Positions 47,961-55,839 of a stretch of 64,000 nt of DNA are shown in pieces (the stretch's first letter is position 1; every line of letters starts with the position of its first letter). The stretch spans positions 9,449,059-9,513,058 of the forward strand of contig NC_061072.1 of NCBI RefSeq assembly GCF_021917145.1, read 5' to 3'. The translations under genes and the position numbers were made by a program. The notes below the pieces were generated by a model, which worked only from the letters and a program-made list of their open reading frames with translations, was not told the origin of the DNA and did no database searches. This stretch comes from Hypomesus transpacificus. Lineage: Eukaryota; Chordata; Actinopteri; Osmeriformes; Osmeridae.

Positions 47961-50314
47961 CAGTAGTGCATTCACAGCACCCCGCATTGACTCCCACCAG
48001 TTTAGGCAGTGGTCAGCCTTTTTATCCAAGTTATTTAAAAAATGTTTACATCCATATGTTGAAAGCAGCTTTCTGTTTCTCATAACATAATACAGTATGA
48101 CTAAGGTAATATTACAAAGAAGGATTGTACACCGGTCACCCTCCTCACAGGAAGTCCATAAGGTCAAGAGGCGTGAAACTTCAGCGACGCAATTGTCCCT
48201 TTGACCCGTCTCACTGTCCCCCCAGCAAAGACCCTGTCAAGGTAGAACGGAACCCGCCCTCCCTTTCCGCCATAGTCTACCCCACCTGCCTGCTGGGTTA
48301 GCACATATGAAAGAGAAGGCCCTTTGTAATCTGGTCGGGATTACACCGCCCAACAATGCAGCACTGAAAGAGCGACAAAAGGGGCTATCAAACACAAGCC
48401 TGGACTGCTGAGGGGAACCGGCTATGATCTCCCACTACCAACACAGCCTCCACCACCTGTCATCTCCCCGAGAAATGCCTTCAGCATTCACTCCCTTGGT
48501 CTTCTCCCCTCTCATCTTTGGAATCAGCCCTTTTTTTATCAGTGCATTCCTTCTCATTTGCATTGCAGTGGGAGGGGGAGGGGGGGGGGGGGACAGTGGG
48601 GTCTCTCTGATCTGATAGTCAGAAGAGAGAGAGAGAGTCAGGAGCAACCTAAGGGCATGGAGAGTGTATTTAGCTTACACACACCCCCCTTCACACACAC
48701 TTTACACTACAATACCTTCTCAAGATAGGCAGGCAGGCACCGCGGAAAAGCGGTTGTTGAACAGCTATAGTAGTAATGGGTCTGTGCCTGTTTTTCAGCT
48801 TGCTCACGGGCAGCGGTGAGCATACAAACAAACCTGACCATTTGCTTTAAAGTGTCTTTCCTTGTCAAACCTTTCACAGCCAGTTTAAAAGCACAGTTGA
48901 ATAGACGTTTGACTTGATGCTTAAGAGGCTGCTGGGAAATGTTTGTGTTGGTCAAGGAGATAAAAAAAGAGGTAGTTTACTTTAAGGATTTCCGAGGAAA
49001 TCGTTGTATGTGCTTTCCTTCTAGTGCTCAGACAGGTTTGGAGGATCAAAAGGGATGATGGATTAAAGACAGCAGGTGCAGTCCACAGAACCCTGTTTGG
49101 TTTGGGAAATGTAGACTGGTGTTGTGAAAATCTAGGTCTAAACCCAGAGAGTGAAATATCATTTAAGATTTTCATTTAACATTTTGTATCATTGACCCCA
49201 AAATCTTTTTCTTTTTTTTCGGTTTGCGAGCTGTGATTCTACGAAGCGATCACCACTATTACAAATGATGTATGCAGGTATGAAACAGATGCATTTTTCA
49301 CTGTTCCTACACTGTCCCTTGAGGCGGTTTTTAAATGATGAATCTGTGAGGTATTCCCTTGGAACAGCTGGCTCTCATCGCGAGCGGAGGAAAGGAAGAG
49401 AGGAGAAAGCAGAAAGCACAGCAGTTCACTGGGGTATTGATAGTGGGGAACAGGGGTCTGGAAGGACGCCAGGAAACTAGCTGCCTCTGATCCTGCGTAT
49501 CGCTGCCTCTCTCTCTCTCTCTGTCCAGTTAATTGGAATACAAAGCAGAGTGAGGTCGATGATAAGGCCGTGGAGGAGGGGGGCTTTGTGTCTCTCTGCC
49601 AACACTCAGCCCTCACCGCACGCTGCTGGAAATTGACTGGAGAACCAGCAAGCGAGACTGACACAATGTCACTGGTAAAATGAAACTGTCACCTTACATT
49701 TTTCAACCTCCTGGCAGCATTGAATTGGCCCCTTTGAACCATGCGCTGTGACACTGATTGAGTTCTGGTTTTCTCCCGGACTCCCGAGGTACTAGCCAGC
49801 CTCGTTAGAGTCAACATCTCTTGCAGAGACTAGGTGCAGCGTGTGGGGATGTATTCTGTGACAGCATTTTATACGTATGCTACGGAAACCGGTCACGGAC
49901 GCAGCCCTTTCTCCTCACCACCCCTCATCATTTCATCGTGCTGCTTCGTTACTTAGCTTTTTCTGCTATTCTTGGTTTTCCTTTCCAACCACACAGACAT
50001 GGCGGTTTGACAGACACAGAGGATAACTATTAGGGCAGCTATTTGGAAACTAGAGGCAATCCCAGTGAGTATTGAGACGTTAACCCTGGCCCAACCACTT
50101 GTCTCTCCCTGTTACCGTGCTGATAGGGGAGAGAATGGGATGCAGTTGGTGGAGGACAAGGAAGGGTAGGTCTTCAGGTTGGCTGGGGGTCCCAGATTGA
50201 ATAGAACTTGACTAGGAGGAGGGGGGAGGGTTGTTGAGACAGTCACCGCCTACACTAGCTGAAAGGAATCTCTGCCATAACAAAGGGAGCGTGAAGGAGC
50301 TGTCCTGCCTGTGC

Positions 50315-50331
50315 TGTTCACCGCAAGGTCT
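50315..50331 (+). promoter_or_regulatory. DR5-type retinoic acid response element candidate 3' of hoxb1b
   Basis: TGTTCA, a five-base spacer CCGCA, then AGGTCT. It differs from the Hoxa1 3' RARE (recalled as GGTTCA CCGAA AGTTCA) at only a few positions and shares TTCACCG. It lies 1.85 kb downstream of the hoxb1b stop codon, where hox1-group 3' RAREs are known in other vertebrates. Each half-site has one non-consensus base. Function is inferred. Confidence 0.5.
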
Positions 50332-52179
50332 TGCTGGACATATCTGAGGCCTTTCCAACCCAAATATGTAACTGAATTCTGTCATGTCTGACCTTTGCCT
50401 TGTCATTTGTCTGTGTTTTTTGTTTTTTTTTTTGCTTCGATTGATATTGTCCCATGTGCTAGCCTTCAAGCCCTTAAGCCTCTCCCACATGAATACTGTG
50501 TGAAGAGCTTTTTTTGGGTCTCTTTGAAACTCGGGGTCCCTGCAGAGTGACATCTGACAGAGGACCTAGTAAGACCAAGGAAGTGAGCCTGGCATTAGAC
50601 TTGTAAAGGAGCCTGTAACAACTGCTACCAGCATGGGGGACACAAGACACTGATTTGACCTCAGAAAAAAAAATCAACAGAGTCCATGGGACAAGCCTGC
50701 ATCCAGAAGTAAACACCTGTCACCATTTGTTAATGGTTTCCATGCTGTAGCATTATACTATATCCCCAATTGTGTGTTATTCTGAGCTTGTGTCACCTTG
50801 CTCGTCCCTGAATCCATCACCCCCACCGCCCCACCCTTGCCCTACATTCTCCAGTAAGAGGTGTAGTGCCACACTGGCTGCATGGTGATAAACATCTTCT
50901 ACCTCCCATGATGAACATCTGTCTCCATGGTGCCAAATCCATCGCTGACTCTGTCACCTCCAGATGGAGAGCTTGGTGGGAGATCTGAGGTATTACCCAC
51001 TAAGATGGCAGGGGATCCCACCTCTGGAATCAGGTCTTACACTTTTACTTATCCTAGATCCCTTTTGTTGATTTTCTCACCTTACACTAATCCACCCTCC
51101 CCTTGTGACCTTCTTACCCTTGTACAAGGCTTTTAGCATTGTGGGAAAATGTAAAAGAACAGTTATTTCTGAAAGTTTTGACAGTCAGGAATACATTTGT
51201 GTCTGAACTTTAGGTGAACCTCAGCTTTGGTGAGAGGGTACTGACAGGACAGTGTGCTGGGTAAGAAACTGTGCAAACTTAACACCCAGAGCAAATATTG
51301 AGACTGCCTATCCCAACAGCGGATGATGCAGGGTTGTCAAGCCCTTGCAAACTTTTAGGAAAAGGTGAATCCACAAAAAGGGCATGAAAGGTTAAACTAT
51401 CAGTTGCACAAAAATGTGTTAGAGGTCAACACACCTATGTAATATGCATAGTGTTCAATGAAAGGTCAGGAAAATAGTTTTCTCTACACTAAAATCATAA
51501 AAATCATGCAGGAAAGATGTGTGAGAATCTGTGCTGTGACAGAAAAACTAACATAATTTGGGTAACAAATTTAGTGTGAAACCAGTTGCCCTGGAGTTTG
51601 TTGTCATGTTTGGAACCCCTGGAGATATTTCGAGTTGAAAAGGTCACTTGGACCACTCCAAACCCTGCCCCCTTCACCCAATTGTGAAGTCAAGAATTCC
51701 TCATTCCTCAGATTAATTAAAAAATAAATTGGTGAAACTTCTCAAGTATTCAAGTGCAAAAGTAAGACCCAAAGATGCAGTAAAGTGAAACTATTTAATA
51801 TAATAATACATAAAAGCTCATGCCAAACCTTGATTGGAAAAATGTATATCGGGGTGGAGGGTTATTTTCAACAAATATACAATACAAATAAACATTAGCA
51901 TGAACAGAACATGTAAAGGCCAATACATTTCCTGTTCCCTAACTGTGCTTTTCACATGTATGTCACATACAATGAATACAATTGGCCAACTGGCCAACAT
52001 TTCAAGACCCTACACATTTTCTTCTGAAAAAAAGCCTAAAGATTATTTTGGAAAATACCCTGTAAATAAATAGTGCAAACAAAACAATGACCCTGGCAAT
52101 TGAATTAATAGACAGTACAATCGACAATATACAAATGTCACCCCACTACAAACAAGATCATGTGTAAAACATCAGTTTG

Positions 52180-53449
52180 TCAAGACGGTTCAGAGTTATT
52201 GGTTTTTGAGTTTGGCGACGAATCAGGTGTAATGGCTTTTAAGACGTTGTCCTCCACTGGTGCTTTTAATTCTGCTCTGGTGTTTATTAACACAGTTCCT
52301 GCTTTCTCTCGCTTCTTCTGTTTCATCCTTCGGTTTTGGAACCAAATTTTCACCTGCGTCTCATTGAGTTCGAGAGTTTCTGCTACCTCAACTCGCCGAG
52401 CCCTGGTTAGGTATTTGTTGAAGTGGAACTCCTTTTCGAGCTCCGTCAGTTGCTTTGTGGTGAAGTTGGTGCGAATTACATTCTGTTGACCCAAGACTCC
52501 ATATTCAGATGCGCTCGCTGTAAAAATGAATGAATGTGTGGATGAAAAACTAATGGAATGAAAGCAAATGCGCTTGGTTCAGTGCAAATAAAGACAACAA
52601 CGGGATCAAGTAGGCTCAACATCTGGCTCTAACAATGACATATAGGATACATTCGAATACATTACCTGTAGGCTATGAGACAAGGCCTCTGAGTAAAGGT
52701 GAAGGTCTTACGCAACAGCAACACAAAAGGCAAGTTAACAGCTAAACATCAAACTATATTCTATTAAAAGTAAACTATACCCATAATCATAAATCTTTGC
52801 TTTGAAACCTGAAATGTAATTGGTTATCTATCTCAGTGGTAAACAAACCTGTTTTAGGGGGATTCCTCTTCACTTTCATCCAGTCGAAAGTTTTGGAGAT
52901 TTGCTCTGCGCAAGTTTCCAAATCAATATCATTGTCTTGGGAAGGCAACTTAGAGAAGGTATTTTCCAAATAGTCCTGCTGTCCCGACTCCCCACTGCTG
53001 AAGTTGAGATACTGGCTCCCCGGACCAAATCCTTGACCACAAATTCCCTCGGCCAAAGAAGCCATGTTTGTTCCAGTTGTCGAGACAGGAATTCCTGGCA
53101 ACGGAATGAATCTTTCCTGTTCTTGACTGAGAGCGTATTGGTGATGTCCGTAGTCTAAAGTAGATCCAACTTGCCCACCATACATAGAGTTTCTTGATGT
53201 TGCAAGCTGAATATCTAGATTGATATGGTGCAACTGAGTCTGGTGGAGAAGGTGGCTCGAAGTCTGATGCTGATGTGGTGCCGAGGTACCACCAATTCCC
53301 AACCGCCCATCGGCCCAGCTATCACTTGTTGCGCATGAGTTGTTGGATAAAGACGTCATGTATCCATGGTTTAGATTGTGAAGTCCGGACTTGGCATTAA
53401 ATATGTTAGTTCCCCTGTTACAAATTTGGTAATCTAAGTAGGAGTTCAT
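52180..53449 (-). CDS. hoxb1b: Homeobox protein Hox-B1b
   Basis: Exon 1 is 53449-52849 and exon 2 is 52517-52180 (phase 1 junction), giving 312 aa. The start [13 protein letters not shown] is typical of teleost hoxb1b. The labial-group PBX-binding motif [14 protein letters not shown] ends exon 1 (FDWM at 188-191). The homeodomain (212-271) reads [20 protein letters not shown] ... [20 protein letters not shown], with Trp48, Phe49 and Asn51 intact. Known role: early hindbrain segmentation; in zebrafish hoxb1b carries much of the mammalian Hoxa1 task. It is the first gene of the cluster, next to skap1 as in other vertebrates. The 5' flank has an autoregulatory-like module and the 3' flank a candidate DR5. 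No hoxb2 follows. Confidence 0.97.
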
Positions 53450-54755
53450 CTTGTATTGTTTTGGAAGAATTGATGAAGACGAGTCAGTCTACGTTAATTG
53501 GTATACCCCGTGCCCTACAACCTCAAAGTACTATGTCAAAGCTGTAAAACTGCCTTCCACGCTCATATCACCTTAGTGTCAGACCACGTGACTTAATTTA
53601 CGCCAATGAAAATGGACCTGCAGCAGTTTGTCAAGACATAGGGTCGTTCATCAAACGTCTAACATTTACATGACAAACGCTTCAATCAAACTCACCCATC
53701 CATCTGATAACAAACATCAAGCCGCATCTGTTAGGATTCTTAGATTGAGAAAAAATGGCTATAAGAGGGATAGCATGAACAAACTTTAGTAATTAGTTTC
53801 TAAAAAATGTCACATGCCACGGTGAATATAGAAGCCTACCTAAATGTTAAGGATGAAGAAAACCCGCTTCCAATGAGAAATAATCTTAAAAGCAGAGGCC
53901 CTGAATCTAAAATTTTGGTTGACCCCCAAACATTTTTAGGGATGATCATGTGATAAATTAATATGTCACTATAGCATAGAGTCAATACAGTATTTTACCT
54001 TTACTGGCAGCACTAATTTGGATTTATGTGATCCATCTTTTGCTCCTTGAAAATACTGACAGCTTGTTCTCCAATTTGCCAGTGAGGGAACAAAGGACCA
54101 CCTTTGAGAGATAATTTATAGTGCCTATAAGAGACAAATTGTGTGGTTTGTTATATTCAACTATACGGATTTATAGGTTAACGGAGTAAATGCAGATTAA
54201 GTCCAATTGTAAATCAGGAGAGTTGTAGACTGGCCTAGGTCTATAAACTTTAGGAGATGAACGGCTGGAAGCAATGGCTGTTATGTAACACTCGATAAAA
54301 GCACAATAACCGTAGATCCTAGGTTGTGGCTATAATTCACTAACAAAGCACCGACGACTGTGAAGTGATAAAGAAAGGTATACCTTGCTGCCAAAGCTTA
54401 CGAGCTACCATGAAGCCTGAAAAATTATCAAAATTAAGGGAGGATTTTAATTATCGCAAATGAACTACACTTCAATTCACAAATAATATAATAGTAAATG
54501 ATAACACACCAGGTCATAAATTAAAGGTGCCCTACAAAAGTAATATATATACCAATTAAATACGATATACGTCTAGTGGTTGCACGTGCAAAAAGTAGCA
54601 TTGATCACCCTGCATTTCATTTTGTGATGTTTGATTCCAGTTCATAAAATGCCTTCAAAACTTGATATGTTCTTTCAGTGGATGAAATTGGGTTGAAGCA
54701 ATGATTTTAATTTCAACAGAAGAATTTGGGTGACGTTGGGCATTGGTTCTAAGTG
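53450..54755. other. hoxb1b-hoxb3b interval, hoxb2b absent
   Basis: Only 1.3 kb separates the hoxb1b start from the hoxb3b stop. No homeobox, PWM motif or other hox2-group coding trace is visible. The part nearest hoxb1b is its promoter, with a module at 53664-53705, an E-box CACGTG (53585-53590) and an inverted CCAAT near 53601. The rest must include the hoxb3b 3' UTR. Confidence 0.7.
53664..53705 (-). promoter_or_regulatory. hoxb1b: hoxb1 autoregulatory-like module (PBX/HOX + SOX/OCT)
   Basis: On the transcribed strand, 215-256 bp upstream of the ATG, lie AGATGGATGG (53705-53696), TGATTGAAG (53688-53680) and TTTGTCATGTAAAT (53677-53664) in order. In the mouse Hoxb1 rhombomere-4 enhancer, as recalled, repeat 1 is TGATTGAAG, followed by a SOX/OCT site TTTGTCATGCTAAT. 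Repeat 1 and the SOX/OCT site match closely here. AGATGGATGG resembles repeat 3 (TGATGGATGG) but has a changed PBX half-site. Recognition is from memory of the mammalian element. Confidence 0.6.
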
Positions 54756-55839
54756 TTACAAATGAGTCAGTTTTGGGGCTTGCATGATTCTATCTTGAGA
54801 GAAATAATGTCTTGTCAAGTATGAAGTGTTTGGATCGCTGAATTCATGCTCATGCCTGGATGTCATTTGCGCAGTGGGACTATTAGAGGAGGCCATGGAG
54901 ATGTTACAGGTCATATCATAAACAGAGACCCCGGGGTCATTATGAGTGGGGAAAATACTAACGTCCCGGTCACTGCTGGGATCATATTTTGAAGCTGCAC
55001 ACATTTGCAGGAACGGGTGGACTTTCGTCGAATTTTGGCTGGCTGGTGCCACCCCTGTAGTGTTTTTTTGAGTCTTTAAAGATGGAGGGGATATTTTATT
55101 ATAACCACAACCCATATCAATATAGCCAAGGTTGGAGAGAGTTGGGCTATCCGAGCACATCCCTCTAAACTTTTCATCTTTCTTGTGCTTCATTCTCCGA
55201 TTTTGAAACCATATTTTAATCTGCCTCTCGTTAAGATTGAGAGAGTTAGCCATCTCCAATCGCCTAGTTATGCACAGGTAACGGTTGTAGTGAAACTCCT
55301 TTTCAAGTTCCACCAACTGAGCACTAGTATATGCAGTGCGCACTCTCTTGGAGGTCGAGGCAGTCGTTGGACTTTTCTCGTCTCTGGAGATGTCTGTCGA
55401 GATAAAATAAAATGTATAAAGTTTAAAAAATGTAGGCTAACACAATGCATAACAAAGGTACCTGGGAATTTGAGGTAGGCCTATATCAGTAAACTCTGTC
55501 TCTGCATTGATCTAATTTCCACCACAGAATAACCGTATAAATGACAATATCTTTTCGGAAAATTGCATACACACCATCTGATAATTTGTTGTGAGATTTC
55601 TGGATTGAATGCCTCGACCCTCTCATCCAAGGAAAAATTTTCTCTGTGACATTTGGCTTTGGTGTTTTCCCTTTTAATTTGAGCTGCGATTTGATGTTGT
55701 CAAATGACTGAAAAACACTATTCAAGTCCTTGTGGTTGCTTTCCAGTTGCGCCAAGGGTTGGTGGGCTTGTACGTCGTATTCAAGTCCATTGACACCTTG
55801 GTAAAGCGTTATGGAGTCGGTGTGTATAGTTCTCTGCAT
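54756..55839 (-). CDS. hoxb3b: Homeobox protein Hox-B3b, short and divergent
   Basis: Exon 1 is 55839-55575 and exon 2 is 55393-54756 (phase 1), giving 300 aa; hox3 proteins are usually about 400. The ATG at 55839 is preceded by an in-frame TAG eight codons upstream. The start [18 protein letters not shown] is hox3-like; hexapeptide KIFPWMRG at 67-74; homeodomain 103-162 with [15 protein letters not shown] and [20 protein letters not shown]. The end QAPKLTHL is the hox3-specific C-terminus. DNA-contact residues Trp48, Phe49, Asn51 and Arg53 are intact. Residues 28-29, normally Arg-Pro in this group, are Ile-Thr, and Tyr is His in RRMKHKK. Expected role: hindbrain and pharyngeal patterning, possibly weakened. 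It is identified by these group-3 marks and by position between hoxb1b and hoxb5b. Confidence 0.93.

Follow-up and report, generated by a model that had tools for sequence, protein, structure and literature searches.

A hoxb1b gene in a HoxBb-type Hox cluster

We analysed a 64,000 bp stretch of DNA from Hypomesus transpacificus (the window), the minus strand of which carries part of a teleost HoxBb-type cluster. Along this strand, the window includes a hoxb5-like exon (63960-63286), mir-10 (59568-59494), a hoxb3-like gene (55857-54756, with a homeodomain) and a group-1 gene with a coding region at 53449-52180; the hoxb5-like and hoxb3-like names were assigned by eye. The group-1 gene consists of exon 1 (53449-52849, with the ATG at 53449) and exon 2 (52517-52180), with splice sites picked by eye on GT/AG; after splicing it encodes 312 aa, including a hexapeptide region. 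The top solved-structure match for its homeodomain is HOX-B1 (1b72; E 9.9e-32, PDB). A search of the same genome (437 Mb, 376 contigs) identified four further group-1 genes, one of which, on contig C17, starts with MDNSRMNSFLEY and adjoins hoxb2-like and hoxb3-like genes (names assigned by recognition). We take this gene (locus L037) to be hoxb1a and, because of this, we assign the group-1 gene of the window as hoxb1b. The nearest relative of the hoxb3-like gene in the window is the hoxb3-like gene on C17. The original prediction had also named the gene as hoxb1b, and the HOX-B1 match, mir-10, and the hoxb3-like and hoxb5-like neighbours all bear out a hoxb1b gene of a teleost HoxBb-type cluster.

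Several features of the wider Hox complement were observed alongside. mir-10 is retained in the window, and there is no hoxb4b homeobox between mir-10 and either hoxb3b or hoxb5b. The zebrafish hoxbb cluster is not known to include hoxb3b. Runs of homeobox matches on contigs C2, C4, C9, C12, C13, C17, C18 and C23 seemingly represent eight Hox clusters, the ends of which have opposite-strand homeobox matches that we take for evx. Cb-like and Db-like clusters both appear to have been retained, judging from homeodomains and the presumed evx neighbours; such a complement is known from only some teleosts.

PBX/HOX and SOX/OCT words upstream of hoxb1b cluster beyond chance

A Hoxb1-type autoregulatory module had been predicted approximately 0.2 kb upstream of the hoxb1b ATG, on the basis of three words. 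All three are present on the minus strand exactly where they had been placed: the SOX/OCT word TTTGTCATGTAAAT at 53664-53677, and the PBX/HOX repeats TGATTGAAG at 53680-53688 and AGATGGATGG at 53696-53705, with 5′ ends 228, 239 and 256 bp from the ATG, respectively. Across the window, (A/T)GAT(T/G)GA(A/T)G occurs 12 times on the two strands, and the region from 49000 to 54800 holds only the AGATGGATGG and TGATTGAAG sites; TTTGTNATGNWAAT occurs once, at 53664-53677.

We determined the chance expectation for these words using 20,000 simulated sequences of 500 bp, generated with a first-order model of the spacer and scored on both strands. Single words are common: a consensus repeat was found in 998/20,000 sequences, which speaks for a chance cluster upstream of hoxb1b. 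However, combinations of words are rare. Pairs of (A/T)GAT(T/G)GA(A/T)G sites on one strand, no more than 40 bp apart, were found in 4 of the 20,000 sequences, and the SOX/OCT word was found in 19; no sequence had a site and the SOX/OCT word within 40 bp of each other. We conclude that the clustering of words upstream of hoxb1b is beyond chance. Given also the genome scan and the alignment with hoxb1a described below, both of which make chance very unlikely, a chance cluster is scarcely credible.

For the genome scan, in which counts of repeats are lower bounds, we searched 437 Mb for TGATTGAAG-N(0-12)-TTTGTNATG and found 8 exact matches, as compared to 1 for a reversed control pattern. TTTGTCATG is present in only two of the eight, namely those upstream of hoxb1a and hoxb1b, and five of the remaining six have one common sequence. 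TGATTGAAGTGTTTGTAATG has five exact copies elsewhere in the genome (L041-L044, L048) that probably represent one dispersed repeat. Among viral contigs, the word pair matched 14 stretches.

The hoxb1b upstream block shares descent with the hoxb1a upstream element

We used the duplicate gene, hoxb1a, from the same genome as the comparison sequence for the hoxb1b upstream region. Local alignment gave a score of 117, whereas none of 2000 randomisations scored above 52. The alignment indicates that the region is related by descent to another Hoxb1 upstream element, and it defines a conserved block of 130 bp at 53601-53730 (minus strand), 152-281 bp from the hoxb1b ATG. By blastn, the block aligns over 102 columns at 76.5% identity, and it is the one match at E 2e-15 in 1.5 kb of upstream sequence, the next match having an E of 0.28. 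Alignment of the hoxb1b upstream region with those of the other three group-1 genes gave scores of 24, 28 and 28 (null mean 25); the SOX/OCT word is found upstream of none of the three, and a single consensus repeat upstream of one.

Six words occur in the same order upstream of the two duplicates. In hoxb1a they are AGATTGATGG (-305), TGATTGAAG (-288), TTTGTCATGCAAAT (-275), TGATGGATG (-251), TGACAAACT (-230) and CATTGGCG (-203); in hoxb1b they are AGATGGATGG (-256), TGATTGAAG (-239), TTTGTCATGTAAAT (-228), TGATGAACG (-204), TGACAAACT (-184) and CATTGGCG (-159), with the last three positions derived from window coordinates. The first repeat of hoxb1b differs from its hoxb1a counterpart at 1/10 positions, with the AGAT half common to both; the second repeat is the same in both genes; and the SOX/OCT word, the opposite strand of which contains the MEIS/PREP-type core TGACAA, differs at 1/14. 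The counterpart of the third repeat lies at 53645-53653. It is followed, 11 bases downstream, by a PREP/MEIS-type site (53625-53633) and then by an inverted CCAAT box that is a probable NF-Y site (53601-53608), all on the minus strand; the last two words, which were picked after the alignment was seen, are identical in hoxb1a. The duplicates differ in that all three repeats fit the consensus in hoxb1a, which also has the octamer ATGCAAAT, but only two do in hoxb1b, and in that the gap between the second repeat and the SOX/OCT word is 2 bases longer in hoxb1a. The collinear alignment upholds the prediction of a Hoxb1-type autoregulatory module upstream of hoxb1b.

A scan for the strict PREP/MEIS form, CTGTCA, found none within 500 bp upstream of hoxb1b. 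We rejected the possibility that the site is missing, since the strict scan overlooked the TGACAA form. We count a PREP/MEIS site as present because the Meis motif is given as TGACAG/A (PMC3261376, in excerpt). In this form, TGACAAACT lies <20 bp from a repeat, and r4 enhancers including that of mouse Hoxb1 are described as having PBX-HOX and MEIS/PREP sites <20 bp apart (excerpt of PMC4489388).

The altered repeat is the third, and the change is in its HOX half

We number the repeats in plain 5′ to 3′ order. The original prediction had labelled TGATTGAAG as repeat 1 and AGATGGATGG as a repeat-3-like word, and had seen no clean repeat 2. The alignment with hoxb1a requires different labels: AGATGGATGG is collinear with AGATTGATGG, the 5′-most repeat of hoxb1a, and is the first repeat; TGATTGAAG is the second; and there are three repeats in total, the third having been overlooked. 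The end of this third repeat lies 11 bp outside the edge of the interval that had been proposed. The repeat consensus is said to have been given by Popperl in 1995 as (T/A)GAT(T/G)GA(A/T)G. All three hoxb1a repeats fit this consensus, and so does AGATGGATG.

The first repeat had also been proposed to carry a damaged PBX half, with TGAT changed to AGAT. We rejected AGATGGATGG as a repeat 3 with this change, since AGAT is common to both duplicates. A reading of AGAT as a mark of damage is not supported: the hoxb1a copy starts with AGAT and so does AGATTGATCG, a site that matches the functionally mapped site of mouse Hoxb2 exactly and that in medaka is found in the mapped r4 fragment of hoxa2a (PMC5831782, in excerpt). 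The module is partly degraded, as predicted, but the damage lies in the HOX half of the third repeat rather than in AGAT. The third repeat is TGATGGATG in hoxb1a and TGATGAACG in hoxb1b; the PBX half is intact, and 2 of the 4 bases of the HOX half are changed (GGAT in hoxb1a, GAAC in hoxb1b). Since only two of the three repeats of hoxb1b fit the consensus, we describe the block as an eroded copy by descent rather than as a working element. The 1.5 kb upstream of hoxb1b contain no further consensus repeat beyond these two, and on this basis we rejected the possibility of an intact third repeat elsewhere in the promoter. The direction of the change, from a consensus third repeat to the hoxb1b form, is suggested by hoxb1a of this one species and by the mouse repeat, which we take to be TGATGGATGG.

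We considered whether the element might still be fully active by site turnover, with the first repeat, AGATGGATGG, which has a GGATGG core, compensating for the eroded third. The third repeat of mouse Hoxb1 has the core GGATGG. The difference between AGATTGATGG in hoxb1a and AGATGGATGG in hoxb1b would fit such turnover, as would the same T/G difference at an upstream candidate site (54029-54062; see below) and the good preservation of the SOX/OCT word and of repeats one and two. However, two single-base differences can arise by chance. Moreover, the third repeat is the strongest in the mouse element and is reported to matter most. We regard full activity through site turnover as unlikely.

Divergence within the block and probable continuing selection

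Together, repeats one and two and the SOX/OCT word, which were defined before the alignment, differ between hoxb1b and hoxb1a at 2/33 positions, as compared to 22/87 in the remainder of the aligned block when the third repeat is left out (Fisher p 0.02); these and all other divergence counts derive from a single pairwise alignment. Adding the PREP/MEIS and CCAAT words changes the counts to 2/50 and 22/70 (p 1.4e-4), a value that is not reliable in that it includes two words chosen for being identical. The third repeat differs at 2/9 positions, like the spacer (p 0.71), and this is not significantly different from the other words (p 0.11 versus 2/50; p 0.20 versus 2/33). The duplication is given an age of 320-350 million years (excerpt of PMC2080641). 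If that age holds, the similarity of the block points to continuing selection in hoxb1b.

The proximal part of the block, with TGACAA and CCAAT, might be conserved as promoter only, and a broader version of this idea is that the whole block is conserved only as the hoxb1 core promoter, with no r4 or HOX-dependent role in hoxb1b. Consistent with this, a CCAAT box at a promoter-like distance of 152 bp from the ATG forms the end of the block. However, the preserved PBX/HOX and SOX/OCT words lie 56-97 bp further upstream than this box and are less diverged than the rest of the block, and we consider a core promoter role for the whole block to be improbable.

A probable eroded copy of the Hoxb1 rhombomere-4 autoregulatory element

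The Hoxb1 autoregulatory element, b1-ARE, has reportedly been described in mouse, chick and pufferfish, in work ascribed to Popperl in 1995, Di Rocco in 1997 and 2001, and Ferretti in 2005. b1-ARE is positioned just upstream of Hoxb1 and includes multiple (T/A)GAT(T/G)GA(A/T)G repeats, a SOX/OCT word and a PREP/MEIS-type site. The hoxb1b block is similar: it is located just upstream of a Hoxb1 gene, as judged by the group-1 homeodomain, the hexapeptide and the HoxBb-type neighbourhood, and it has a SOX/OCT site beside the repeats. It differs from b1-ARE in the altered HOX half of the third repeat. Judged by its sequence, the block is most likely a teleost form of the Hoxb1 autoregulatory element that has been kept by selection and in which the third repeat has eroded. 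More specifically, we think it probable that 53601-53730 is the hoxb1b copy of the rhombomere-4 (r4) autoregulatory element, that it originated before the teleost duplication, and that with its third repeat altered it supports only a weak loop.

According to this model, PBX-PREP/MEIS and group-1 HOX proteins would still occupy the first and second repeats, and the bound repeats, together with SOX/OCT factors, would feed into the hoxb1b promoter. Without the third repeat, the autoregulatory loop would be weak and would not close stably. We infer that hoxb1b would receive an early, retinoic acid-started hindbrain input and, unlike hoxb1a, would not hold its own expression in r4. In zebrafish, Pbx and Prep are described as being present at hoxb1a before Hoxb1b arrives (excerpts of PMC5003318 and PMC6023610), and hoxb1a as being switched on by hoxb1b and then self-sustaining (excerpt of PMC6020313).

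A 3′ DR5 retinoic-acid response element is common to both duplicates

Downstream of hoxb1b, we identified a perfect DR5 retinoic-acid response element, GGTTCACCTAAAGTTCA, at 51204-51220 on the minus strand, within a block conserved with hoxb1a, where the element reads GGTTCACCCTGAGTTCA. The DR5 is 960 bp past the stop codon of hoxb1b and 3117 bp past that of hoxb1a, in gene orientation in both cases; each 3′ region has a single further DR5-type match, this one on the opposite strand. The two DR5-bearing blocks align over 222 columns with a score of 98. Randomising the 500-bp stretches, which were chosen after a blastn match, gave scores of up to 39 (2000 randomisations), and randomising the entire 3′ regions gave scores of up to 59 (60 randomisations). 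The presence of the DR5 in a conserved block of both duplicates weakens the idea of reciprocal loss of retinoic-acid response elements.

Fish hoxb1 duplicates are a well-known case of duplicates retained by sharing out regulatory parts. For the zebrafish pair, McClintock reportedly found in 2002 that the upstream element is eroded in hoxb1b. Complementary degeneration of one upstream and one downstream element in zebrafish hoxb1a and hoxb1b is described in an excerpt of PMC1896008, citing McClintock 2002, such that degeneration of the regulatory elements of these duplicates has already been published. Also in zebrafish, RAR peaks occur in the hoxb1a-hoxb4a region, and hoxb1b is retinoic acid-induced with an RAR site nearby (excerpt of PMC8608873). 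The fish studied here is similar in that a regulatory element of a hoxb1 duplicate has degenerated. It differs in that the 3′ DR5 is retained by both duplicates, and we saw no downstream degeneration of the zebrafish kind at the level of half-sites. With one repeat altered in one copy, and the other repeats and the 3′ retinoic-acid element retained in both, the pattern is more in keeping with one weakened input than with a clean exchange of parts, and the bases to test can be named. What is new is the base-level picture in one genome, the 3′ DR5 common to both duplicates, and the candidate remnant of a hoxb2b enhancer.

A candidate remnant of a hoxb2b r4 enhancer

No hoxb2b homeobox was found between hoxb3b and hoxb1b. 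In this interval, 0.6 kb upstream of hoxb1b, 54029-54062 (minus strand) reads CTGTCA-N18-AGATGGATCA, which we list, at the motif level only, as a candidate leftover hoxb2b r4 element. The spacer between hoxb3a and hoxb2a contains CTGTCA-N18-AGATTGATCA (from C17:16157915), with the words (CTGTCA and an AGAT(T/G)GAT site) and the N18 spacing as at 54029-54062. CTGTCA/site pairs with a spacing of 4-25 were found in 9/20,000 simulated spacers, and none had a spacing of exactly 18. The surrounding 300 bp aligned to the hoxb3a-hoxb2a sequence with a score of 28, which was reached by 994/5000 randomisations and is not significant. The window has a second CTGTCA/AGATGGAT pair, on the minus strand from 32552; hence, such pairs arise by chance. 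The known r4 element of Hoxb2 and Hoxa2 (CTGTCA and AGATTGATCG; PMC5831782, in excerpt) has an AGAT-type PBX half, as does the hoxb1b module. Unlike hoxb1b, it belongs to paralogue group 2, and the similar pair 0.6 kb upstream of hoxb1b is a candidate remnant. Our search of full-text literature on hoxb1b and HoxBb enhancers returned no match mentioning hoxb2b. As a lead, it is possible that 54029-54062 is a leftover r4 enhancer of the lost hoxb2b.

A related scenario is that HOX/PBX control of hoxb1b was rewired rather than lost: the third repeat would have decayed, the first would have taken on the GGATGG core, and loss of hoxb2b would have placed a second r4 element, CTGTCA-N18-AGATGGATCA, 0.3 kb from the module. 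We consider this rather unlikely; if true, hoxb1b would have a compound r4 enhancer that is absent from hoxb1a. The AGAT-type sites at 53696-53705 and 54029-54038 (minus strand) both read AGATGGAT, and their proposed HoxBa counterparts read AGATTGAT.
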